Source: a virus. From it: a stretch of DNA of 20,901 nucleotides. The first letter of the stretch is position 1, and every line of letters begins with the position of its first letter. The position numbers were made by a program, and so were the translations under genes. Location: positions 1 to 20,901 of IMG/VR virus record IMGVR_UViG_3300006751_000182; one strand, given 5' to 3'. Positions 2,718-20,901 of the stretch are shown piece after piece. The notes under the pieces are model-generated. The model had not been told where the DNA came from, ran no database searches, and was given only the letters and a program-made list of their open reading frames with translations.

Positions 2718-3185
2718 ATGAAACTTAAAGGGATTCTGGGAGCGTTAGCCCCCACACTGCTTAAAACGGTAGCTAGTAGTAATCCTATTGCGGGAATGGC
2801 AATCAAAATAGCTGCTAAAAAGCTAGGAATGCCAGAAACATCTAGCATCGAGCAGATCGAAGAAGTTATAGAAAGAGAACCAGAAAAAGCAGAAATCTTG
2901 CAGGACGCAGAATTAGAGATAAAAAAGCTCACTGCGAATATCGAGGGGTTCAGGCTTGAGACTGAAGACAGGCAAGACGCAAGGGCTAAGTTCGCCAAAG
3001 ACCCTACGCCTAAAGTCATTGCAGTTATGGCAATGCTTGGGTTCTTGGCGTATATATTTATGGTTACGCTCCAGGCACCGGAAAGTAATGATGATGCCAT
3101 TGTCAATCTTGTTCTTGGTTATCTTGGGGGGCTTGTTAGCGGTATTGCCAGTTTCTACTTCGGAAGCAGTCATAATGGAGATTAA
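2718..3185 (+). CDS. holin of the GTA 3-TM type
   Basis: The 155-aa protein has a hydrophobic or amphipathic N-terminus (about residues 5-33), a charged helical middle (about 43-95, with DRQDAR) and two clear TM segments (about 98-118 and 128-148). It ends in FYFGSSHNGD. This layout and the FYFGSS ending match the GTA_holin_3TM family of gene-transfer agents and alphaproteobacterial phages. Members form holes in the inner membrane that let the endolysin reach the murein. It lies directly before the GH24 endolysin gene, as expected. No clear Shine-Dalgarno precedes the ATG. A five-codon frame (ATG at 2704, stop TGA at 2719-2721) ends across the start, so coupling is possible but unproven. Confidence 0.85.
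   Translation: MKLKGILGALAPTLLKTVASSNPIAGMAIKIAAKKLGMPETSSIEQIEEVIEREPEKAEILQDAELEIKKLTANIEGFRLETEDRQDARAKFAKDPTPKVIAVMAMLGFLAYIFMVTLQAPESNDDAIVNLVLGYLGGLVSGIASFYFGSSHNGD
3177..3180 (+). promoter_or_regulatory. ribosome binding site favouring the endolysin start at 3190
   Basis: GGAG sits 9 bases before ATG 3190. The competing ATG at 3175 has only the weaker GGAAG at 3162-3166. The choice of start rests on this and on alignment with T4 lysozyme. Confidence 0.5.
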
Positions 3186-3189
3186 GGGA

Positions 3190-3624
3190 ATGGAAAAGCT
3201 TATAGAACAATTAAAACGGCATGAAGGCGTAAGAACACATGCTTACAAAGACCAGTTCGGCACGGTTCACATTGGTGCAGGGCGTAATATTTCAGACGGC
3301 CCTCACAAAGGACTAGGTTTAAGCATAGCAGAAATAGATTTTATGTTAAGTAATGATATTGTTAGAACTATTAAAGAGTTAAGTGCAGAGTACGCTTGGT
3401 TTAACGACTTGGAAGATGGGGCTAGGCGGGACGGAATTATTAATATGCACTTTAACTTGGGACGCCTTCGTTTTTCTAAATTTGCTAAAGCACTTGCTCA
3501 TATGGAAAAAGGTAGTTATGACGCAGCAGCTACTGAATTTTTGGACAGTTTGTGGGCACGGCAAGTAAAAGGCCGCAGCCTGGAAGTAACAGACATGATT
3601 AAAACTAACGAGTATGTAGGGTAA
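3190..3624 (+). CDS. GH24 (T4-type) phage endolysin with His at the catalytic Thr position
   Basis: The 144-aa lysozyme cleaves the glycan strands of murein. The family pattern is clear: KRHEGVR with catalytic Glu12, AYKD with Asp21, G24, then IGAGRN (28-33). The C-terminal half has the usual INMHFNLG (85-91) and DSLWARQVKGR. In T4 lysozyme the third active-site residue is Thr26; the aligned residue here is His27 (codon 3268-3270). There is no signal peptide or SAR anchor, so it should need the holin just upstream. The chosen ATG (3190) puts Glu at position 12, close to T4 (11), and has GGAG at 3177-3180. The alternative ATG at 3175 overlaps the holin stop and adds five residues (MEIKG). A much longer open frame upstream is a shadow of the holin gene. 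Confidence 0.9.
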   Translation: MEKLIEQLKRHEGVRTHAYKDQFGTVHIGAGRNISDGPHKGLGLSIAEIDFMLSNDIVRTIKELSAEYAWFNDLEDGARRDGIINMHFNLGRLRFSKFAKALAHMEKGSYDAAATEFLDSLWARQVKGRSLEVTDMIKTNEYVG

Positions 3625-3626
3625 CC

Positions 3627-5516
3627 ATGCCGGTTAAAAAATTACAGTTTAAAGCGGGAGTGAATAGGGAGTCTACCCGTTATGCTGCCGAAGGCCAGTG
3701 GTATGAAGCTGAAAAAGTGCGATTCAGACGGGGACTACCTCAAAAAATAGGGGGCTGGGAGCAACTTTCTGCTAGTACATTTTTAGGCATATCTCGTTCT
3801 CTCCATAACTGGGCAACATTAGGCTTACAGAATCTTGTTTCTGTAGGTACACACCTTAAGTATTACCTAGAAAAAGGTGGCGCGTACTATGATATTACCC
3901 CTATTAGAGAAACTACATCTGCTGGCGATGTTACCTTTGCGGCTGTAAACGGGGACGCTACTATAACTGTTTCTGATACATCAAACGGTTCTATTCAGAA
4001 TGATTTTGTAACTTTTTCAGGTGCGGCTTCTTTAGGAGGTAATATTACTGCGGCGGTGCTTAATCAGGAGTATCAGATAGCTACGCGCCTAAACGATAAT
4101 TCCTACACTATAGAAGCTAAAGATACTTCCGGTTCTACAGTTACAGCAAATGCTTCTGATAGCGGTAATGGAGGAGGAAGCACTGTAGGTGCTTATCAAA
4201 TAAATACAGGTAATGAAATTGAAGTGCCGTTTACTGGGTGGGGTGCTGGTACATGGAGTCAAAGTACATGGGGTAACGGGGGAACTACTCAGGCAGGGAT
4301 GCGGTTATGGAGCCAATCAAATTTTGGTGAAGATTTATTCTTTTTGCATAGAAATGGAGCTTTATATTACTGGGACGCAAGCGGTGGTATAGCTACTAGA
4401 GGGGTGTTAGTAAGTTCTTTAGGAGGTGCGGCACAGGTTCCTACAGTGGCTAATATAGCTTTTGTTTCTGATATTTTCAGGTTTGCATTTTGTTTTGGGG
4501 CCAATGCTGTGGGCAGTTCTACACTTGATCCTATGCTCATCCGGTGGTCTGACCAAGAAGATATAAGCGACTGGAACCCTACAGCTATTAATCAGTCCGG
4601 TAGTTTAAGTTTATCTGAGGGTACTGAAATAATACAAGCTATCCAAGCCCGACAAGAAATTCTAATTTGGACTGATGCGGCTTTATATGGACTTCAGTAT
4701 TTGGGTGCGCCGGAGGTATGGGGTGCAACTTTACTAGGTTCTAATATTACAACCGCTAGTTCTAATTCAGCCGTTTATTCTAATAATGTTGCCTATTGGA
4801 TGGGTAAAAATAAATTTTATTTTTATGATGGCACTGTTAAAACATTGCCTTGTGAAGTGCGTAGTTATGTATTTGACGATTTTAACATAGAACAGTATGA
4901 CCAGATCGTTTGTGGTTCTAATGAAGAATTTGATGAAATATGGTGGTTTTATTGTTCTAACGGGGTTACTCAAAATGACCGTTATGTGGTCTATAATTAT
5001 GTAGAAAATATCTGGTATTACGGTAGTTTAGCTAGATCAGCATGGCTTGATTCTGATTTACGTGTGCATCCGTTAGCAGCTACTTTTAGTAACAAGTTAG
5101 TGAGCCATGAAAAAGGAGTAGACAATAACGAAACAGGCACTCCAGCAGCTATTACTGCTAGCATTACTTCTACTCAGTTTGATCTGGATGACGGTGATCG
5201 GTTTATGTTGGTAAACCGGATGTTGCCCGATATGACTTTTGACGGGTCTACGGCAGCCTCTCCAGCCGCTACTTTAACTTTAAACCCTTTAGAAAACTCT
5301 GGTTCCGGGCGATATAATCCTGCTTCTGCGGGGGGAAATAGTAGCGCTACTGTTACTAGAACAGCTACAACACCTATAGAGGCATACACTGGGGAAGTTT
5401 TTATTCGTGTGCGGGGGCGGCAAATGTCGTTTAAAATTGAATCTACAGCTACAGGAGTAACGTGGAAGCTGGGCGCACCTAGAATGGATATGCGTCCTGA
5501 CGGCAGGAGGGGATAA
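3627..5516 (+). CDS. virion/tail structural protein (beta-rich)
   Basis: The 629-aa protein opens with a segment typical of a widespread phage structural protein (FKAGVNRESTRYAAEG, then KVRFRRGLPQKIGGW, residues 8-44). A beta-rich, Gly/Ser/Thr-rich insert follows at about 100-190 (containing TFSGAASLGGNI). Next come repeated blade-like strands with Trp/Tyr motifs: RWSDQEDISDW, IWTDAALYGLQY, EIWWFYCSNG. The end is RGRQMSFKIES, then KLGAPRMDMRPDGRR. The strand pattern suggests a beta-propeller-like tail hub or accessory protein, loosely like P22-type tail accessory factors; this is inference. It starts 2 bases after the endolysin stop, and its own stop overlaps the next start by 1 base (TAATG). 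There is no enzymatic motif. Confidence 0.85.
   Translation: MPVKKLQFKAGVNRESTRYAAEGQWYEAEKVRFRRGLPQKIGGWEQLSASTFLGISRSLHNWATLGLQNLVSVGTHLKYYLEKGGAYYDITPIRETTSAGDVTFAAVNGDATITVSDTSNGSIQNDFVTFSGAASLGGNITAAVLNQEYQIATRLNDNSYTIEAKDTSGSTVTANASDSGNGGGSTVGAYQINTGNEIEVPFTGWGAGTWSQSTWGNGGTTQAGMRLWSQSNFGEDLFFLHRNGALYYWDASGGIATRGVLVSSLGGAAQVPTVANIAFVSDIFRFAFCFGANAVGSSTLDPMLIRWSDQEDISDWNPTAINQSGSLSLSEGTEIIQAIQARQEILIWTDAALYGLQYLGAPEVWGATLLGSNITTASSNSAVYSNNVAYWMGKNKFYFYDGTVKTLPCEVRSYVFDDFNIEQYDQIVCGSNEEFDEIWWFYCSNGVTQNDRYVVYNYVENIWYYGSLARSAWLDSDLRVHPLAATFSNKLVSHEKGVDNNETGTPAAITASITSTQFDLDDGDRFMLVNRMLPDMTFDGSTAASPAATLTLNPLENSGSGRYNPASAGGNSSATVTRTATTPIEAYTGEVFIRVRGRQMSFKIESTATGVTWKLGAPRMDMRPDGRRG
5505..5510 (+). 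promoter_or_regulatory. strong Shine-Dalgarno (AGGAGG) before the fibre-like gene
   Basis: A perfect AGGAGG lies 5 bases before the ATG at 5516 and inside the end of the previous gene. It is the strongest ribosome site in the window, suggesting a highly translated virion component. Confidence 0.7.
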
Positions 5517-11433: not shown

Positions 11434-14400
11434 ATGGTTTTTAACGTACAAGAACAAGTAAATGCCTACGAAGATAAAGGCGTAAATGCGTTGCAAAAAA
11501 TGCAGCAACAAAACCCTAAGTTGTTGGTTGGTATTGCGTTAGAAAATTTAATGAAAGACATGCAAGAAGATCAACGAGCCAAACAAGCGGCTGCTGGTGG
11601 TGTCGGTGCTCCTATAATTGATAAAAAACTTGCAGGTTTAAGTGGGATGGGGGGCTTAGGACAACAAGAAGCTATGGCTACTGCGGCTCCTGGCCTTCAA
11701 CAACGTGGGCAACAAATGCAAGGGCAACAAATTCTTAAAGCCTTACAGCAAGCAGCTAGAAGGCCCGGTGGTATGCCCGCAGCTATGGCTCAAGCTGGAA
11801 GTATGCCAGCAACAAGACCCGGCGCGATGCCCACACAACGAATGGCAATGGGTGGGATTGTTGGGTATCAGGATGGAGGGAATGTACAACCCATCCCTGC
11901 ACTTATGGATAAGTATGGCAGTGAGATGGTAATGGAGTTTCTGGAAGGGGAAAAACAATTACAAGAAGAAAGCAAATATGTAGCGCCTCAGTATACCGCT
12001 GCTTACCAACAAAAAGCAGACAATTTCTATTCAGGGTTTGACCAAGGGTTTGTAAGCGACTTACTTACAGCCAGATCAGGGCAGTCCTATCCTAAATTTA
12101 GCAGCACAGACGAGTTAATGAAGTATGTAACGCGAGATCGTCCGGGGCTAAGATTTACAGGCCCAAAGCCTAACCCTGAAGAAATGGCCCACGGTGGCAT
12201 CGTAGGCTATGCTAATCGAGGACTTGTAGAAAACAGTCCTTTTTCCACAGACCTTGCTGATATGGACATAGATGCAGTATTAGATGCCATTCGACAAGTT
12301 GAAAGTGGTGGTAATCCTGATGCTGATTCAGGCTATGCCTATGGAGCATACCAAATTAACCCTGAAGCTGGATTAGAACCCGGATACGGTGTTGAACCTA
12401 TAGACGTATATAACAGTTCTGAAGAAGAACAACGAGATTATGCACGAAACTATTTAACAGCTATGTTTAATAAATATGGCAACATGGAAGATGCTTTACA
12501 AGCATACAATGTAGGACCAACAGCTCTTGATGAAATACAAGCGGGTAGAAGAGATATGCCGCAAGAAACAGGAAATTATGTTGGTAACATTAGAAACCAA
12601 TTAGCAGGTGGTGCTATGAATGAAGATTTTGTACCTCTTTCCAGTATGGCAGACGATGAAGGCATGGTCAGTCAGGCCGTTAACTGGGCAAAAGAAAACC
12701 CATTTGAGGCTGCTTCTTTAGGGTTAATGTTTATACCGGGAGTTGGTTGGGGTATGGCAGGAGCACGGGGTGCGGCAATGGGAGCCAGAGCTTTAGCACC
12801 TAGAGGGATAGCCGCAGCGAAACAAATAGGGAGTGGAATACGTGAAGGCGCTCGGAATTTGTTTACTAGACCCCTTAAGTCAGGTCCGGGCAGTGCGGTT
12901 AGAGACCCGGCAACTGGTCAAATGATGAGGGCTAGCGATTTAACAAACTTTTCAAGAGGACGGCTTGGTGATCCGGGCGGAAACACCGTTCTACCTGGAG
13001 TAAAGTATAACCGTGCTTTTTCACCCGGACGTACTGCGGCTGCTGCGGGGGCTGCTGGATTTGCAGGGTCAAACCTAGTTGGAGATGCTTTAACTCCCGG
13101 TGGACCCGGCAATAACGTATCTCCCGGTTTAGCTGCGGCAGACAGAAGAAGAACATTGCGGGAAAACCCTGCTATAGGTTCTTTGCGTGAAGTAGGTAGG
13201 CTACAAGACAATCAACAACAACAAGAACATGAAAATGAAATTGCGTTGTTAAATGCAGCACAAAACCGACAGTTTGGTGGCCCTGGCAATAATGTATCTC
13301 CTGGTATAACTAACGCACAAAGAAGAAGAACATTGCGGGAAAACCCTGCTATAGGTTCTTTGCGTGAAGTAGGACGACAACAAGATGAAGGTGCTAAAGG
13401 GGCTTTAGAATATTTACAAAGCATAGGCCGTCAACAACAAATGGGGGCCGACACTCAAGATATGGTAAACAGGGCTGACCCCGCTCGGACTCTTAGAGGT
13501 ATAGATACTGATAGAGAATTTGAATCTTCTAATGCAGGAATAATGAGTGAAGCAGATAGGTTTAGCCAAATGTTTCCAGATGCTAAAGGAGCTGTTAGAC
13601 GCTATCAAGATGAGCAAGCAGAAGATGAACTTCCTAGTTGGTATAAAGGTAAAGTATATGAGCCAGGTGCTATGGGTGATTTTGCTGAAATAAAAGATTA
13701 CTTACAAAGCCTCTTTGGTTTTAAAGAAGGAGGAAGAGTTGGTTTTCAACCCGGAGGGGCGGTAGGTTCCATGTCAGGCTCTGGCAATATTAATGTAGGA
13801 ACACTTGGTTCGGGAAGCGAAACAGACGAAGAAGAATTTGTCCCACTTGAAGATTTATCAGATGAAGATGACATGATAAATAAGACCATTAACTGGGCAA
13901 AAAACAATAAGTGGGAAGCTGCTTCTCTAGGACTTATGCTTGTACCGGGACTTGGTTGGGGTGTTGCCCTGGGGCGGGCTGGTATGCTGGGAGCCAGAGC
14001 TTTAGCACCTAGAGGAATAGCAGCACTAGGAAGGGCATTTGGACCGGGAAGTAAATTAGGTAAAGTAGGTCAAAAAATGTTTACTAAACCCCGACAATAC
14101 ACCAAAGATTTTAAAATAGAAGACCCTACCTTATTAAATAAAGCAGGAAAACCTACTGTGTTAAGGGGTAAAAAAGGGTTTGAGGAAGCAATAAATCCAA
14201 GAGCAGCCGTAGAAAGAATACCCGGCGCGTTAAAAACACGTAGAGGAAAGCCTGTAGGGGGTAGAAATCCTGATATAAGAAGAGCATCAGCAGCCAGAGA
14301 CCCGTTAATTAGCCCTAGAGTTTTTGATCCTTTGCGTGCTACCGGAGTAGCAGCCACACCCGGTGCTATATCAGCGGGAATAAGCGCACTTGGGGGAGAC

Positions 14401-15045
14401 GAAGCTCAAGCTCAAGCTCAAACTCAAGTCTCAAGGGACACATCAAATCTTGATCGCAGTAGACCTTTTGATGTGGAAGCATTCTCAGAAGCATATCCTG
14501 AATTGGTAGCAGAGATGCGCCAACGCCCGTTAGATGAGACTCAACGTAGTTACGATGAACAAAGAGCAGCTTTGGAAGCACGCAGACGTGAAGAAGCGCG
14601 ACCCGGCATTATGAGTCAGGTTGGTAATGCTCTTGGGTCTGAAAGAGCGCAACGCCTTTATCAGGCAATGCAAACTTTAGGTCTTGGAGGAGGCGCTGCC
14701 AGAGGGCAAGAAGGTTTGCAGCTTATGGCAAATTTAGAAACAAGAAACGCGCAACGAAGAGAACTGGATGCCTTGGAAGATAAACTAGCTGTAGACAGGG
14801 AAAATATAGCCGCACAAGAACGTGCGAATTTATCTAATCTCTATGCAGCGGTTTATAACGATACAGGGTTTCAACAGCATTCAGCCAAAATAGCAGAGGA
14901 AAAGGGTTTATCTATGGACGATCCCGAAGTAATAATAGCTACTTTAGCGGCTTTCTTTGGGGCGCTCCCACAAAGCCCAGTATTAGATAATATGGGAGGG
15001 TTAGATGGTCCTACTAGAAGTGAAATGGAAGCATATATTCAATAA
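11434..15045 (+). CDS. 1203-aa virion protein with lytic transglycosylase domain
   Basis: The N-terminal ~140 residues are Gln/Met/Gly/Ala-rich. A lysozyme-like SLT domain lies at about 278-395: IRQVESGG with probable catalytic Glu290, then YAYGAYQIN, then AYNVGP (357-362). Such domains cut murein and in virions open a local hole for DNA entry. Three GG-(I/R)-VG-(Y/F) motifs occur at 140, 254 and 766. A hydrophobic Gly/Ala-rich block is duplicated (about 397-480 and 800-887), and a 59-codon segment is repeated with an identical 53-base core. The C-terminus is helical and charged. The ribosome site is AAGGAT at 11421-11426. The stop overlaps the next start (TAATG). It is probably an internal or ejection protein acting with the giant downstream protein. 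Confidence 0.87.
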   Translation: MVFNVQEQVNAYEDKGVNALQKMQQQNPKLLVGIALENLMKDMQEDQRAKQAAAGGVGAPIIDKKLAGLSGMGGLGQQEAMATAAPGLQQRGQQMQGQQILKALQQAARRPGGMPAAMAQAGSMPATRPGAMPTQRMAMGGIVGYQDGGNVQPIPALMDKYGSEMVMEFLEGEKQLQEESKYVAPQYTAAYQQKADNFYSGFDQGFVSDLLTARSGQSYPKFSSTDELMKYVTRDRPGLRFTGPKPNPEEMAHGGIVGYANRGLVENSPFSTDLADMDIDAVLDAIRQVESGGNPDADSGYAYGAYQINPEAGLEPGYGVEPIDVYNSSEEEQRDYARNYLTAMFNKYGNMEDALQAYNVGPTALDEIQAGRRDMPQETGNYVGNIRNQLAGGAMNEDFVPLSSMADDEGMVSQAVNWAKENPFEAASLGLMFIPGVGWGMAGARGAAMGARALAPRGIAAAKQIGSGIREGARNLFTRPLKSGPGSAVRDPATGQMMRASDLTNFSRGRLGDPGGNTVLPGVKYNRAFSPGRTAAAAGAAGFAGSNLVGDALTPGGPGNNVSPGLAAADRRRTLRENPAIGSLREVGRLQDNQQQQEHENEIALLNAAQNRQFGGPGNNVSPGITNAQRRRTLRENPAIGSLREVGRQQDEGAKGALEYLQSIGRQQQMGADTQDMVNRADPARTLRGIDTDREFESSNAGIMSEADRFSQMFPDAKGAVRRYQDEQAEDELPSWYKGKVYEPGAMGDFAEIKDYLQSLFGFKEGGRVGFQPGGAVGSMSGSGNINVGTLGSGSETDEEEFVPLEDLSDEDDMINKTINWAKNNKWEAASLGLMLVPGLGWGVALGRAGMLGARALAPRGIAALGRAFGPGSKLGKVGQKMFTKPRQYTKDFKIEDPTLLNKAGKPTVLRGKKGFEEAINPRAAVERIPGALKTRRGKPVGGRNPDIRRASAARDPLISPRVFDPLRATGVAATPGAISAGISALGGDEAQAQAQTQVSRDTSNLDRSRPFDVEAFSEAYPELVAEMRQRPLDETQRSYDEQRAALEARRREEARPGIMSQVGNALGSERAQRLYQAMQTLGLGGGAARGQEGLQLMANLETRNAQRRELDALEDKLAVDRENIAAQERANLSNLYAAVYNDTGFQQHSAKIAEEKGLSMDDPEVIIATLAAFFGALPQSPVLDNMGGLDGPTRSEMEAYIQ
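12265..12618 (+). other. lytic transglycosylase (SLT-like) domain
   Basis: Residues about 278-395 of the 1203-aa protein. The order of motifs is that of soluble lytic transglycosylases: Glu290 in QVESGG, then G-x-YQIN, then AYNVGP. The usual YNAGP is slightly altered (Val for Ala). It would cleave the MurNAc-GlcNAc bond in murein. Confidence 0.8.
13144..13196 (+). repeat. 53-bp exact direct repeat, copy 1
   Basis: Identical to 13321-13373 over 53 bases, 177 bases apart (59 codons, same frame). It encodes RRRTLRENPAIGSLREVG. The flanking GGPGNNVSPG segment is also repeated but has diverged. Confidence 0.92.
13321..13373 (+). repeat. 53-bp exact direct repeat, copy 2
   Basis: Second copy of the 53-base repeat at 13144-13196. 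Full identity at synonymous positions indicates a recent duplication or recombination between copies. Confidence 0.92.
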
Positions 15046-18000
15046 TGTCTGATTTAGATTTAGCAGTTAAGGCTTTTAATAAAGCCAAAGCACAAGGAGA
15101 TACAGTCAATGCAAAGCGTTTTGCACAGGCAGCTTTAGATTTAGATACACCTACCTCTCCTGTGTTCAATCCAATTACTCTGCTAGGCGGTTCGATGCCT
15201 AGCATAGCCCCTCCTGCCCCCCGTGATAGTTCCTTGCCATTGCCAGATGCAAGCGATAGAAGCCTTTTTAGAGAAACAGCAGACGTGGGTCTCCAATTCG
15301 GAAAAGGTGCTGTTTCGGGTGTTCGTTTTATTACTGATACTTTAGGTGCAGGTAACCCTTTATCCCAGGCATTAAGTGGTACTGAAGAATGGTTAGACAG
15401 CCTTCTTTCTGCCCAGTCTAAACGGGACCAGCAAGAAGTTGCTCGGATATTAAAAGAAGCCGAAGACAAAGGAATGGGTGCTCAAGTAGTAGCCGGTCTT
15501 AAAGCTTTAACTGTTGCTCCCGTAGATTTAGTTGTAAATGCTTTTGGTACTTCTGTGCCGGTCTTAGTCGCAGGTATTTTGGGTGGAATGGCTGGTCTAG
15601 GTGCAAGGGGTGTGGCTACTGGTGTAGGAGTATTAACTGGAGTTGGTATTACTAAAGGCGCTATTAACGATGCTGTTTTCCAAGAATTAATAAGCGCTGG
15701 TGTATCAGAAGCCGATGCTAAAGAAGCTGCAAAAGAAGCGCAGGCATACGGTGGAAATAACTTAGATAACATTGCTTTCGGTGGTTTTCTTGGGGGGATA
15801 GCTTCAAAAGTAGGCATGGAACCAAAAATCCTTACCAGTGGAGTAGGAAGAAGGTTAGCTGGAGATGTGTCTGCGGAAGGGTTAAAAAATGCAACGAAGC
15901 TAGGGCTTATAAAAGAAGCTTCTCGTACAGCATTAAAAGAAGCATTGCCTGAAGCTTTACAGGGTGGGCAGGAACAATTTGCAAGTAACATCGCGCTTCA
16001 AAGAGAAGGTATTGATACGCCTACTTTTAGAGGGGTAACAGGAGCTGCCACATTAGAGGGTGCGGTAGGTGCGCCAGTCGGAGCTATTAGTTCATTAGGT
16101 TCAGACATTATAAAACCACGCGGGACAGAACTGGCTGATATTGAAGCAGAGATAGAAAGGCTAGCAGGGGAACAAGAAACAGAAACATTTGAAGAAAAAG
16201 AAGAAGAAGCAGCGCAGGAAGACAAAGTAAGACTTAAGGCAGACAGACAGAAAAGAATGGAAGAAGCTGACAGAGCATATTGGCGCAAAAGGAAAGAATC
16301 CGAAAAAAGTTATGCAGAACGCGGCATTGAAGAAAGACAACTGGAAGGGGTGGCAGCGTATGAAAACCCTGAAGAAATTAGGCAACGTGTAGTAGATGAG
16401 GTTTATGAAAAATTAATAAATGAAGGGGTGCTAGAAGACGAGGCTGTAGAAACCGCCGAGCTTCGTGGTGAAGAAGCAGCGGATGCAGCAATTAAAAGAG
16501 AATTTGAATTACAAGGCGTAGAAGAAACTGTTGTATCTGACGCAGCAGATGAGTTAACAAGACGCGAACAAGAAGACCTCCAAGCTTTTATAGACACAGA
16601 AGCAGGCTATGACGGCTATGTAGATTCTGTTAAAAATAAAATGGAAAAAGAAAGTGGGGTTAGCCAACAAAGACAAATAGACGATTATCTTAAAAGTCTT
16701 TCGGAAGGAAGATTAGATAAGCTGTTTAAATTTACACCAGACAGAACGTTTCGTAAGCTAGTAGACAATGCGGTAGTTGAACAAAATAAGGCTTACAACA
16801 ATTACAGAGACCGAGTAGAAAGAGCAATACAAAATGATTTGATATTAAAAAACTTAATTCAGGCTGGCTATAAAAAAACAGATTTAGGAAGGTTTCTTAG
16901 AGCACTTAGGGATGGAAAAACTAATTCCATTTTTCCTAAATTTAAAATGCCCACTACACAAGAAACGACTAAGGGTATTCTTAAGTATATAGACATAAAT
17001 AAAGCGAGGGGCTTAAGAAAAACTAAAGAAGTTGATGCTTTTTTCTCTACAATAGATTTAGAAAGACCAATTAGTGATGTAATTAAGTCCTACCGTACAA
17101 CAAAAGGGTATGCAGCCGCAGCCCTTAAAGAACAAGCAAGAACAAAAAAAGAATTTCCAAACATAGAAAAAGAAGACTTACTAGCAATTGAAGAAGCAAA
17201 ACTAGAACTAGATATAATTACAGAAAAAATATTTAGTTTAAGACCAGACAGTACAATAGACCCTTCAAAAAGTGCAGAAGACCCTATAGCTTACACTGAG
17301 TACCTTGCAGATGCAGAAACAGTGGAAGAATATTGGCTGGGGTTAAAAAATGCACAAAATATTCCAGGGTTTACAGCCGAAGATGATTTACTTGTAGATG
17401 ATGTAAATGCTGAATCAGGCAAACTAAAAGGGGAAGCTAGCAACTTAAAAGGGGAAAAAAGAAAACGTGCTTTAGCTATAAATAAATATTTTAATATGCC
17501 TTTTGTTGACACCTATCCTGAACTGGCTTTAGAAGAACTTGCTATAGATGTAGCTTTAGACCCTACCGGTATTGAACAAGAAATAATAGACAGCCGCCCC
17601 GTCTCAGTCCGAAGTTCAACAGGAAGATTGCCTACTCCTCCAAAAGAAGTATTAACAAAAGCACTTGAATTAATACCAACGGACGCGAGGCGAACTGCAT
17701 TAAAGCGTAGTGTAGATACTATTAAAGCTACACAAAATGCTAAAGACTGGGTGCTTGAATCAGAACTTTCTACAGCTATAAAAGATAATTTTATAGCGCG
17801 TGTTGATATTATTAGAGAAGACCATAAAAAACAAATTTTAAAAAATGCAAGAAGTTTACAAGGCGCAGATAACTTAAGAAAAAACAAAATAGCAGAAGAG
17901 CTAGGTGTAGAGTCAGCTAGTACGTATGTAAGTGACGTTTTTAAATTTGAAGAAGGAAGTGACAACGAAACAAAAGCGTTTAATAAAGCTAAAAGACAGA

Positions 18001-20901
18001 TAGCAAAAGACGTTAAAAACAAAAAAGTACCAGACACATTTAAAGATGTTAAAGAAGAAGTAAGTGCTCTGGAAGGTGAAGATGTAGATACAGATGCGGA
18101 TGCAAGTGTTGACGCTGCTAATAGAGAATTAACAAAACAACAAGCAACCGCTAAACTTAAAAAAATAAACAGAGAAGCAAAAAAAATTCAGGATAAATTA
18201 CAGGAGAAACAACGAGAAAAAATTAATACTGCCGCTCATGGATTTGCAACAAAAGAAATGACGGAAAAATACAAAGGTAAACCATTAAAAAAAGATGAAC
18301 CTAACAATAGAACTGAAGAGTGGAATACTTTGTATATTGCTGAAAAAAGTAGACTATTAAAAGCTTATGATGCAGCGCTAAAAGCTAAAGCTACAGATAA
18401 AGAATTAACTCCCGAACAGAAAACACAATTAGAAAAAGATTTACCAAAAGATGTTGAAGCGTTTAGAAACACTAAACGCCAAGAGATAGCAGAAGAGCTA
18501 AACTTATCTATAGATGACCCCGCAGTAGAAACGGAGTTAAACAAACGTATAACAGTAGAAGGTACGCCAAACATATTACCGGGAGTACCGAAATATACCG
18601 CAGATGCTAGTGACAAGAAAAGACTTGCCCAGATAATAGACCCGCAAAAACCTCAAGAAATAGACCCAATAATACAAGAGTATGCAAATAATGTACGGGG
18701 TTTAAATCGTACTATTGAAATACTCCTTGCTTCAGAACCTAAAGAAATAAGACCTGTTTTACGTAAGCTACGTAAATTAGCTGCGGGTACTAAAGTACGT
18801 ATAGAATCTTTTGCTGATCCAGAAGAAGTGGGTCGTTATTACTCGGAAGAAAGGGTTATCGCGTTAGACCCCGAAAGGGGAATGAATAAAGCTACGTTCT
18901 TCCATGAACTTTCTCATGCGGGTTTGGATCGTTTATTAGCTAACCCTGATTCTAAAGAAGTAAAAAAACTTTTTGAGTTCTATTCTTCTATAAAAACCCA
19001 GATGGGGGATGCTTACGGAGGGACTGATCTTTATGAGTTTGTTGCAGAGCTAGTAGGTAATTCTGAGTTTCAAAACCTTCTTAAAACAATAAAAGCACCG
19101 AAAAGTAAATCACTTTGGGACACTATAATAGATTCCATTTTAGAATTTCTAAACATTCGTAAAGGCCAAAGTGCGTATGATGCGTCGTTTAAATTTTTAA
19201 ATGATGTTATAGAAGCGCGTCCTTCTATAGAACCTTCCCGTTTAGAACGTATGTTTTTTGCCAATGAAAATCCAGAAGTAGTTTTTAAAGAAGCAAGCGA
19301 TGAGCTGCCGCCGTTTCGTTCTCGACGTTTAAAAGAAACAATGGAAAATATAGAAGGACCAGCAAATTTTGTTGACAAACTTAAAACAGGAGCGTCCGGT
19401 GCCCTTCGTCTTGATAATTTAATGGAAGCCTATGGCAAGCATTTACCCGGCATTAAACAAATAATTGAGTTCGTAGAAAAACGCCAGGGAGAACAAGAAC
19501 AAGGCATTGCAGAAATTAATAAAAAATATAAACAGTTTTATAAATTGGCTGACAAATACAACCCTGCCATGAAAACAATGGGTAAAATGGCTATAGCTAT
19601 GCGGCTTGCACGAGTAGATATATTTGAACCGGCACCTAGTCTTAAAGATAAGACAGGCAAAAACAAAACAGGCAAAGAATTAGTTAGAGAAGAAAAAAGA
19701 TTAAAAGCTTACAAGGAAGGTAAAGCTACGTTTGAAAAACTTGGTAAGATGGAAGGAGGAAAATCTATACAAAATATGTACAAGATCATGCGGGCTGATT
19801 TTGATAAAACGTATAAAGATTATGTAAATGTTCTTCTTAATTCTATAAAAGATTTTGAGTTAAGAAACGAAGTAAAAAAACAATTTGATGCAGAAAAACC
19901 TATTGCAGGTTATATACCGGCTCGCCGCTATGGTGATTTTGTTTTAATCTATGTAGATAAAGCTACAGGAGAAAGAACTGTCCGTACCTTTGAGTCTAGG
20001 TCAAAAAGAAATAAAGAAATAAAAGCACTGGGTTTAAACCATCGTATTGAAATTCAAAAACAATTAAATGAAGCTGAAACAGAAGAAGAAAGAAAAAGTT
20101 TAAAAGAACAAACAAAAAAATTAAAAGTAAATGATTACGTTACTTTAAATAGTATTAAAAGCACAGTTACAGCTTCGTTTCCTCCAGAAAACTTTATTGC
20201 AGATGCTATGGAAGCAGTGAAACAGACTGGTGAAGAGCAAGGTTTAGGTAAAGAACAAGCGCAAGCTTTGGCTACAAGCGTATACGAAGCATATGTAGAT
20301 TTATTTCCTGACACTTCTTTAATGCAACAGTTTCAAACTTCAGCAGATATAGCTGGGGCTTCAGACGATATACTTCGTGTCTGGGGGGAGTCGATGGTTA
20401 AGTGGGAGCGTAAACTAGCTGACCTTAAATACAACGCTAAAATACAAGAAGGTTTTAATAAAGTACGTTCACAGGCTTCGGGCTATAGCCAACTGTCGCC
20501 TTCAGACCCTTCAGAGTCAACTATACATTCTCTAGGAAGAAATATTGCAGGTAAGAAAGAAGGAGAAGGAAGAGAAGAGTTTACTTTAAACCCGCAGTAC
20601 GCTCCCTGGGCCGCTGGTGCTACCACTGGTAGTTATTTTTTGTTTATGGCAGGTAATGTTTCTTCTGGCGTAGTAAATTTAAGCTCTGTCCCCCTACTAG
20701 CGTATCCTATACTAGCAGCTCGGTACGGAGGCATAAAAACAGCAACGGCTCTTGGAAAAGCAAGTAAAACTGCTATTAATGATTGGGAAACAGACCCTAA
20801 ATATAAAGTGTTGTATGAAACACTGCGGGACCATGCCCAGTTACGCCATACGTTAGAACGAGAAGTTCTTGAAGGCGCTCGCCAAAGCTCAGAAGAATAT
20901 A
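15045..20901 (+). CDS. giant polyvalent-type phage protein, zinc-metallopeptidase and PLxRFG-like segments, 3' end missing
   Basis: The frame runs from ATG 15045 (overlapping the previous stop, TAATG) to the right edge without a stop, so at least 1952 residues. Parts in order: a helical N-terminus. A hydrophobic Gly-rich region covers about 148-235. An LPEALQGGQEQFASNIALQ segment follows (about 301-319). Then comes a very long charged, Glu/Lys/Ala-rich helical region (about 360-1200). HELSH (1287-1291) is followed by YEFVAE with Glu1331 and Glu1335 as candidate third zinc ligands. GYIPARRYGDF (from 1622) resembles the PLxRFG motif of phage polyvalent proteins. A hydrophobic SYFLFMAGNVSSGVVNL region begins near 1863. 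Known relatives are multidomain proteins thought to be packaged and injected with phage DNA. Activity and targets here are unknown. Confidence 0.9.
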   Translation, partial: MSDLDLAVKAFNKAKAQGDTVNAKRFAQAALDLDTPTSPVFNPITLLGGSMPSIAPPAPRDSSLPLPDASDRSLFRETADVGLQFGKGAVSGVRFITDTLGAGNPLSQALSGTEEWLDSLLSAQSKRDQQEVARILKEAEDKGMGAQVVAGLKALTVAPVDLVVNAFGTSVPVLVAGILGGMAGLGARGVATGVGVLTGVGITKGAINDAVFQELISAGVSEADAKEAAKEAQAYGGNNLDNIAFGGFLGGIASKVGMEPKILTSGVGRRLAGDVSAEGLKNATKLGLIKEASRTALKEALPEALQGGQEQFASNIALQREGIDTPTFRGVTGAATLEGAVGAPVGAISSLGSDIIKPRGTELADIEAEIERLAGEQETETFEEKEEEAAQEDKVRLKADRQKRMEEADRAYWRKRKESEKSYAERGIEERQLEGVAAYENPEEIRQRVVDEVYEKLINEGVLEDEAVETAELRGEEAADAAIKREFELQGVEETVVSDAADELTRREQEDLQAFIDTEAGYDGYVDSVKNKMEKESGVSQQRQIDDYLKSLSEGRLDKLFKFTPDRTFRKLVDNAVVEQNKAYNNYRDRVERAIQNDLILKNLIQAGYKKTDLGRFLRALRDGKTNSIFPKFKMPTTQETTKGILKYIDINKARGLRKTKEVDAFFSTIDLERPISDVIKSYRTTKGYAAAALKEQARTKKEFPNIEKEDLLAIEEAKLELDIITEKIFSLRPDSTIDPSKSAEDPIAYTEYLADAETVEEYWLGLKNAQNIPGFTAEDDLLVDDVNAESGKLKGEASNLKGEKRKRALAINKYFNMPFVDTYPELALEELAIDVALDPTGIEQEIIDSRPVSVRSSTGRLPTPPKEVLTKALELIPTDARRTALKRSVDTIKATQNAKDWVLESELSTAIKDNFIARVDIIREDHKKQILKNARSLQGADNLRKNKIAEELGVESASTYVSDVFKFEEGSDNETKAFNKAKRQIAKDVKNKKVPDTFKDVKEEVSALEGEDVDTDADASVDAANRELTKQQATAKLKKINREAKKIQDKLQEKQREKINTAAHGFATKEMTEKYKGKPLKKDEPNNRTEEWNTLYIAEKSRLLKAYDAALKAKATDKELTPEQKTQLEKDLPKDVEAFRNTKRQEIAEELNLSIDDPAVETELNKRITVEGTPNILPGVPKYTADASDKKRLAQIIDPQKPQEIDPIIQEYANNVRGLNRTIEILLASEPKEIRPVLRKLRKLAAGTKVRIESFADPEEVGRYYSEERVIALDPERGMNKATFFHELSHAGLDRLLANPDSKEVKKLFEFYSSIKTQMGDAYGGTDLYEFVAELVGNSEFQNLLKTIKAPKSKSLWDTIIDSILEFLNIRKGQSAYDASFKFLNDVIEARPSIEPSRLERMFFANENPEVVFKEASDELPPFRSRRLKETMENIEGPANFVDKLKTGASGALRLDNLMEAYGKHLPGIKQIIEFVEKRQGEQEQGIAEINKKYKQFYKLADKYNPAMKTMGKMAIAMRLARVDIFEPAPSLKDKTGKNKTGKELVREEKRLKAYKEGKATFEKLGKMEGGKSIQNMYKIMRADFDKTYKDYVNVLLNSIKDFELRNEVKKQFDAEKPIAGYIPARRYGDFVLIYVDKATGERTVRTFESRSKRNKEIKALGLNHRIEIQKQLNEAETEEERKSLKEQTKKLKVNDYVTLNSIKSTVTASFPPENFIADAMEAVKQTGEEQGLGKEQAQALATSVYEAYVDLFPDTSLMQQFQTSADIAGASDDILRVWGESMVKWERKLADLKYNAKIQEGFNKVRSQASGYSQLSPSDPSESTIHSLGRNIAGKKEGEGREEFTLNPQYAPWAAGATTGSYFLFMAGNVSSGVVNLSSVPLLAYPILAARYGGIKTATALGKASKTAINDWETDPKYKVLYETLRDHAQLRHTLEREVLEGARQSSEEY
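18765..19230 (+). other. zinc-metallopeptidase-like domain in the giant protein
   Basis: Residues about 1241-1395. A strand with 'RYYSEERVIALD' precedes TFFHELSHAGL (HExxH, His1287 and His1291, general base Glu1288). DLYEFVAELVGNSEFQ, with Glu1331 or Glu1335, follows about 40 residues later. This HExxH plus EFVAE-(x)-NxEFQ pattern is typical of peptidase-like domains in phage and plasmid polyvalent proteins. Its substrate is not known. Confidence 0.72.
19890..19960 (+). other. divergent PLxRFG-type motif
   Basis: The sequence GYIPARRYGDFVLIYVD (starting at residue 1622) aligns by eye with the (Y/F)-P-L-x-R-F-G-D signature that names PLxRFG proteins. Leu is replaced by Ala and Phe by Tyr. The downstream hydrophobic segment near residue 1863 also fits that family. 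Confidence 0.55.

Follow-up and report, generated by a model that had tools for sequence, protein, structure and literature searches.

Histidine recurrently takes the place of the catalytic threonine in viral GH24 lysozymes, a possible natural switch from inversion to retention

The virus-derived DNA analysed here (IMG/VR record IMGVR_UViG_3300006751_000182, positions 1 to 20,901; the whole 20,901-nucleotide stretch is called the window) encodes a T4-type GH24 lysozyme in which a histidine, His27, stands at the site of the catalytic Thr26 of T4 lysozyme. At this site the enzyme is a natural and recurrent counterpart of the engineered T26H lysozyme. Histidine at this site is rare in the family overall and normal in the window's own clade, and from sequence comparison the Glu-Asp-His triad is a recurrent variant of Glu-Asp-Thr, with repeated and independent switching between His and Thr. 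That phages have repeatedly and independently evolved an inverting-to-retaining switch through Thr to His, giving GH24 a double displacement with a histidine nucleophile, is a serious possibility, although we lean slightly against it.

The reading frame that opens at the ATG at 3190 is translated into 144 residues, beginning MEKLIEQLKRHEGVRTHAYKDQFGTVHIGAGRN. It matches the Pfam profile PF00959 (Phage_lysozyme; 1.6e-8, 35.4 bits against a cut-off of 22.3) and carries the PHROGs label endolysin or tail lysozyme. Its AlphaFold model (pLDDT 92.8) was used as a Foldseek query and matched T4 lysozyme structures at TM 0.80-0.88; the structural comparison called for by the original prediction thus returned the T4 lysozyme fold that characterises GH24. 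The HMM alignment also places Glu12 and Asp21 at the Glu-x8-Asp spacing of the family, while the Thr (or Ser) of the canonical E-(D/C)-x5-Thr triad is replaced by His27. The product of 3190-3624 is therefore a GH24 homologue with a variant triad and lies outside the canonical-triad enzymes. According to PMC8228626, every published structure in this group has Glu(X)8(Asp/Cys)(X)5Thr. The domain and its active-site residues are as follows.

3190..3624, plus strand: GH24 (T4-type) lysozyme catalytic domain, 144 aa plus stop (PF00959, AlphaFold, Foldseek)
3223..3225, plus strand: Glu12, equivalent of T4 Glu11, the general acid (HMM alignment)
3250..3252, plus strand: Asp21, equivalent of T4 Asp20 (HMM alignment; invariant in alignment A1)
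3268..3270, plus strand: His27 (CAC), equivalent of T4 Thr26, the residue that positions the catalytic water (HMM alignment, phmmer)
3574..3576, plus strand: Arg129, equivalent of T4 Arg145 (gap-free phmmer match of 71-139 to T4 87-155; invariant in A1)

Alignment A1 holds 97 rows, and the invariance of Asp21 in it is partly built in because Asp was in the search pattern for many of these rows. In T4 lysozyme itself, Arg145 is close to the catalytic Glu.

The motif in the window reads D21-QFGTV-H27-IGAG. In a profile-HMM alignment that includes T4 lysozyme, window residues 12, 21, 27, 29 and 31 share columns, gap-free, with T4 residues 11, 20, 26, 28 and 30; E12, Y19, D21, G24, H27 and I28 fall with T4 E11, Y18, D20, G23, T26 and I27, and G29, G31 and R32 with G28, G30 and H31, again with no gap. 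A phmmer search of the PDB set His27 opposite position 26 of 1qt8, gap-free, where that chain reads YYHIG, and further matches with His27 at position 26 were obtained for 5xpe and 5xpf; we take all three entries to be the T4 lysozyme mutant T26H. In the AlphaFold model His27 sits inside a predicted beta strand (residues 26-29). The original prediction had put Glu12 and Asp21 at the standard GH24 positions, which the profile-HMM alignment with T4 lysozyme confirmed, and had assigned His27 to the Thr26 site by eye, an assignment on which the HMM alignment, the phmmer match to the T26H chain and the predicted fold agree. It had also named Thr25 as a residue that might occupy the active site instead. 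This candidate was rejected: the Thr25 equivalent is present in just 13/47 non-redundant His enzymes and so is not conserved, and even with Ser and position 26 admitted, Thr or Ser at 25 or 26 occurs in only 15/47. The remaining catalytic residues are retained, with Glu present in all 104 verified viral GH24 genes from a His-pattern scan that left Glu unspecified and the Asp21 equivalent kept in all 47 non-redundant His rows, Asp having been part of the search pattern.

Thr26 of T4 lysozyme serves to position the catalytic water, and replacing this residue by His is by itself enough to turn the inverting enzyme into a retaining one (PMC2976769). The natural His enzymes keep every residue needed by the T26H mechanism, and the window enzyme has the whole set, with His at the Thr26 site and the equivalents of Glu11, Asp20 and Arg145. 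Studies of the mutant reportedly include those of Kuroki et al. (1995/1999) and Hiromoto et al. (2017), and neutron and X-ray work on T26H is said to show an imidazole nitrogen that is deprotonated and placed for attack on the anomeric carbon, with Glu11 as acid/base. By analogy, the neutral imidazole of His27 would attack the anomeric carbon of N-acetylmuramic acid on the side on which the attacking water is normally kept by Thr26 and Asp20, and Glu12 would act first as acid and later as base; the bond would be cut by double displacement with retention, leaving an enzyme able to transfer as well as to hydrolyse. An active T4-fold endolysin with a Glu-Asp-His triad that works in this way, as T4 T26H does, is a reading for which we find belief and doubt evenly balanced. 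Retention and transglycosylation by the natural enzyme, likely on this argument, are extrapolated from a single engineered mutant. The two share a His at the same position, the Glu and Asp partners and the Arg145 equivalent, but T26H is one engineered enzyme and retention was shown there only, whereas the window's His is natural, conserved under purifying selection and recurrently switched. The canonical GH24 endolysins (T4, P22, P21, DLP12, LysF1, and P1 with Cys) resemble the window enzyme in fold, Glu-x8-Asp spacing, glycine-rich beta hairpin and genomic role, but have Thr where it has His (PMC8228626).

Among close IMG/VR relatives of the window enzyme (n=80, at least 69% identity) 64 have His and 16 Thr, and the identical protein is encoded on two other metagenome contigs; sequencing error was rejected as the source of His27 on these two observations. 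A residue-blind IMG/VR scan, in which the site was left free (EG..., Y.D..G..?[IV]G.G), gave a different picture for viral GH24 genes at large: the 120 matches listed comprise 118 Thr, 1 Ser and 1 His (L088), a family-wide His frequency of ~1% (1/120 of the matches listed; exact 95% interval about 0.02-4.6%). The concern that His might be common in ordinary members of the family was thereby answered. A second scan, for site codons whose second base is not C, leaves out Thr, Pro, Ala and TCN serine, and among its 120 viral GH24 matches listed were 77 His, 37 Ser and 6 others, with no Asn, Asp or Glu. The 77 His loci had already been found; the 43 new loci were the 37 Ser, 2 Cys and one each of Leu, Gln, Lys and Met. 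Among these matches histidine is the sole non-hydroxyl residue with appreciable frequency at the site. The site codons are ACT, ACG or ACA for Thr and CAC or CAT for His, so that Thr to His takes two nucleotide changes; the one-step intermediates between ACN and CAY are Asn, absent from the matches listed in the non-Thr scan, and Pro, absent from the residue-blind matches listed. A His-pattern scan of genome contigs gave mostly chance matches (6 loci passed the GH24 profile, 3/6 of them without the Glu) and was excluded from the frequency estimates. His was also absent from the named isolates nearest several His lineages, which have Thr or Ser instead. The literature searched, most subscription papers lying outside its reach, gave neither an account of a naturally occurring His at the Thr26 site nor any biochemical work on a His member.

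Other departures from the canonical site were seen in passing. Cys occupies the Thr26 site in the GH24 domains of L452 and L483 (GQICIGVGHA), and Leu (L456), Gln (L465), Lys (L478) and Met (L488) are single cases. Shewanella phage ZP9 (L440, 468-902) has a Glu-Cys-Ser site (EGLRLKPYKCTAGKLSLGYGRN) in which the Asp20 and Thr26 positions are both replaced. The gp5-like tail lysozyme of Prochlorococcus phage P-RSM4 (L496) has an altered Y-x-D motif (FSPTAIPEPNGGMSIGYGH), without Tyr or Asp at the usual positions and with Ser at the Thr26 site.

Recurrence of the switch was assessed on a maximum-likelihood tree of 163 GH24 domains, built from 138 columns with the site column left out. With a bootstrap range of 13-15, the tree requires 14 exchanges of His with another residue, at least 7 of which are forced by well-supported branches; 138 columns are short for this number of rows and numerous deep forks stay open, which makes 7 the safer figure, and the counts do not separate gain from loss. 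A single origin of His was rejected, since forcing one His clade costs a delta lnL of 600 (p-AU 0.0027) and the His rows therefore belong to more than one lineage. Independent cases include L126, a His enzyme with a Thr sister, L416 (support 100/95); L137 with its Thr sister L407 (100/99); and L110, L090 and L123, grouped with the Thr enzyme L397 (100/88). The window's own supported clade has 41 rows, 34 His and 7 Thr (100/90), with the Thr rows nested among the His rows.

The same alternation bears on whether these enzymes retain at all. An active Glu-Asp-His enzyme could still be inverting and release the alpha anomer, with His27 replacing the Thr hydroxyl in positioning water or sharing the base role with Asp21; we consider this a real contender, although we think it somewhat improbable. 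A site nearly limited to Thr, Ser and His, interchanging among close relatives, fits one shared role, as does an Asp21 equivalent kept in every His enzyme, though Asp was in the search pattern. A compensating residue tied to His was looked for in an independent-pair scan of all columns, which gave no clear signal in at most 7 pairs on supported branches. That His and Thr alternate between close relatives whose scaffolds are otherwise alike, while no partner residue clearly changes along with them, counts against retention; it would be easily explained if both residues did the same job and product stereochemistry were unchanged. Against an inverting His enzyme stands T4 lysozyme itself, the one scaffold tested, where Thr to His alone gave retention (PMC2976769).

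Under either stereochemistry we argue that the His is catalytic, because the site is near-restricted to Thr, Ser and His, purifying selection is strong and the switch is recurrent. Pairwise dN/dS between the window enzyme and its His relatives is about 0.02-0.13 (two further pairs were saturated and unusable), and selection of this strength rules out decay. The suggestion that the protein is a non-catalytic lysozyme homologue, its His a loss-of-function change and the cell lysed by another enzyme, draws on the second muralytic domain in the window (SLT, 11434-15045) and is in our judgement very improbable: a decaying site would accumulate many residues beyond Thr, Ser and His, A1 shows no variation at the Glu and Arg, and the gene lies in the lysis slot while the SLT domain is within a large protein among virion genes. 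Inactivity was accordingly rejected as unlikely on the residue restriction and the dN/dS values. The SLT (lytic transglycosylase) domain belongs to a 1203-aa protein that is probably virion-associated; the ORF that follows (15045-20901, at least 1952 aa) runs off the end of the window, leaves no room for other genes and encodes a probable internal virion protein.

The genes around the lysozyme and the features at its start are as follows.

2718..3185, plus strand: upstream holin-like membrane protein, 155 aa (PHROG 1544, 8e-9; synteny)
3088..3189, plus strand: probable N-terminal extension of the lysozyme, hydrophobic, with ATG ATG ATG at 3088/3091/3094 (MMMPLSILFLVILGGLLAVLPVSTSEAVIMEIKG)
3177..3180, plus strand: GGAG, Shine-Dalgarno-like, 9 nt before the ATG at 3190 (sequence)
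3627..5516, plus strand: downstream virion structural ('stabilization') protein (PHROG 3287, 1e-63)

The structural protein has tblastn matches in phage DSL-LC04, Roseobacter phages CRP-901/902 and pelagiphages HTVC023P/027P. In DSL-LC04 the slot that precedes the same structural gene holds a 'Holin of 3TMs', in the position of the window's holin-like gene, followed by an M15A peptidase; in CRP-902 it holds a chitinase. The lysozyme lies between holin-like and structural genes, in a slot filled by other enzymes in relatives, and is therefore best read as an endolysin, presumably made together with its holin-like partner. In L064 the downstream structural gene is 91% identical to the window's and the Thr lysozyme 72% identical, which suggests that the lysis cassette moves as one piece. 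Upstream of the lysis slot are a lipase class 3 gene (PF01764, 1716-2465) and a lipoprotein-like ORF (2446-2679); both are conserved near the lysozyme in many relatives and are unusual for a phage lysis region.

The holin-like gene is directly upstream of the lysozyme in 64/64 close His loci and undetected in 15/16 close Thr loci, two of the latter having too little upstream DNA (L045 260 bases, L076 22). This association has a bearing on a further explanation, that His is an adaptation to another condition or substrate (seawater salt, pH or a host peptidoglycan modification) and any change of mechanism a side effect, which we regard as improbable. Such an adaptation would fit two observations: the largest group with His is a clade of environmental phages, to which the closest isolates are marine ones, and in the close family His goes along with an intact holin-like gene and Thr with no detected copy. 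However, the association amounts to essentially one or two events on the tree, too few for causation to be claimed, and His is also found in unrelated contexts, such as L126, a relative of T4-like cyanophage-type tail lysozymes that sits beside a Thr sister.

The original prediction gave the gene as 3190-3624; this includes the catalytic domain, but the full protein may be longer, since the start is probably near 3088, inside the holin-like gene and in another frame. Initiation at 3190 is possible, given the GGAG 9 nt upstream. The lysozyme frame runs on upstream of 3190 without a stop codon, across the 3' end of the holin-like gene. When the synonymous codons of that gene were randomised, the lysozyme frame was expected to be open over the last 32 codons of the holin-like gene in 1.35 cases, against 19/19 distinct relatives observed; the other alternative frame, used as control, was open in 0/19, and further upstream the lysozyme frame was open in 7/19 and 3/19. 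The 19 relatives are non-independent, yet their holin-like proteins fall to about 45% identity. By this comparison the overlapping frame is held open under selection, and it would encode a hydrophobic N-terminus; residues 4-18 are helical in the long-form model, with moderate confidence. Export or membrane anchoring of the lysozyme is likely, and secretion may give the enzyme a second way into the periplasm besides a holin lesion. Hydrophobic segments before a GH24 domain are likewise found in the SAR/signal-peptide endolysins (P1 Lyz, P21 R), but the segment predicted for the window is encoded in another frame of the upstream gene. No such extension is present in more distant clade members (e.g. 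L124, L135, L102, L140, L088).

The Thr relatives of the same clade (L045, L064, L068, L072, L079) are mostly 66-75% identical in the aligned domain and share the scaffold and, in several cases, the genomic slot. They differ in having Thr at the site and in the loss of the holin-like gene, which is gone from all Thr relatives that can be judged except L072. L064, L068, L074, L045 and L067 still have DNA homologous to the 3' end of that gene (a shared CTGCATTCTTCTTT...AAATAA block), which, read in the lysozyme frame, yields a hydrophobic N-terminus free of overlap, as with MPKFLVLLVVIWLGLYPVSLHSSLVEITLEDD in L068; L079 has a similar segment. It is this retention of the segment in Thr relatives without the holin-like gene, together with the overlapping frame kept open, that points to the start near 3088. 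In L064, L068, L074 and L045 the 3' remnant appears re-used as a signal- or anchor-like lysozyme segment, which may be one way in which secreted endolysins arise.

The mechanism of a glycosidase is usually taken as constant within its family. The Glu-Asp-His lysozymes bear on whether inversion and retention can switch naturally within one family, a question usually answered 'no', and they offer several independent natural replicates, with Thr and His enzymes that share up to about 75% identity and can be compared directly. Lysozyme-like families other than GH22 are all listed as inverting (PMC2976769). A double displacement through a His nucleophile, if true, would be a mechanism unassigned in GH24, and would give these phages an enzyme that cuts and possibly also transfers glycan strands. 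If the His enzymes are retaining, they would be natural transglycosidases for making peptidoglycan or chitooligosaccharides; if they are inverting, it would have to be reconsidered whether T26H is enough to bring about the switch.
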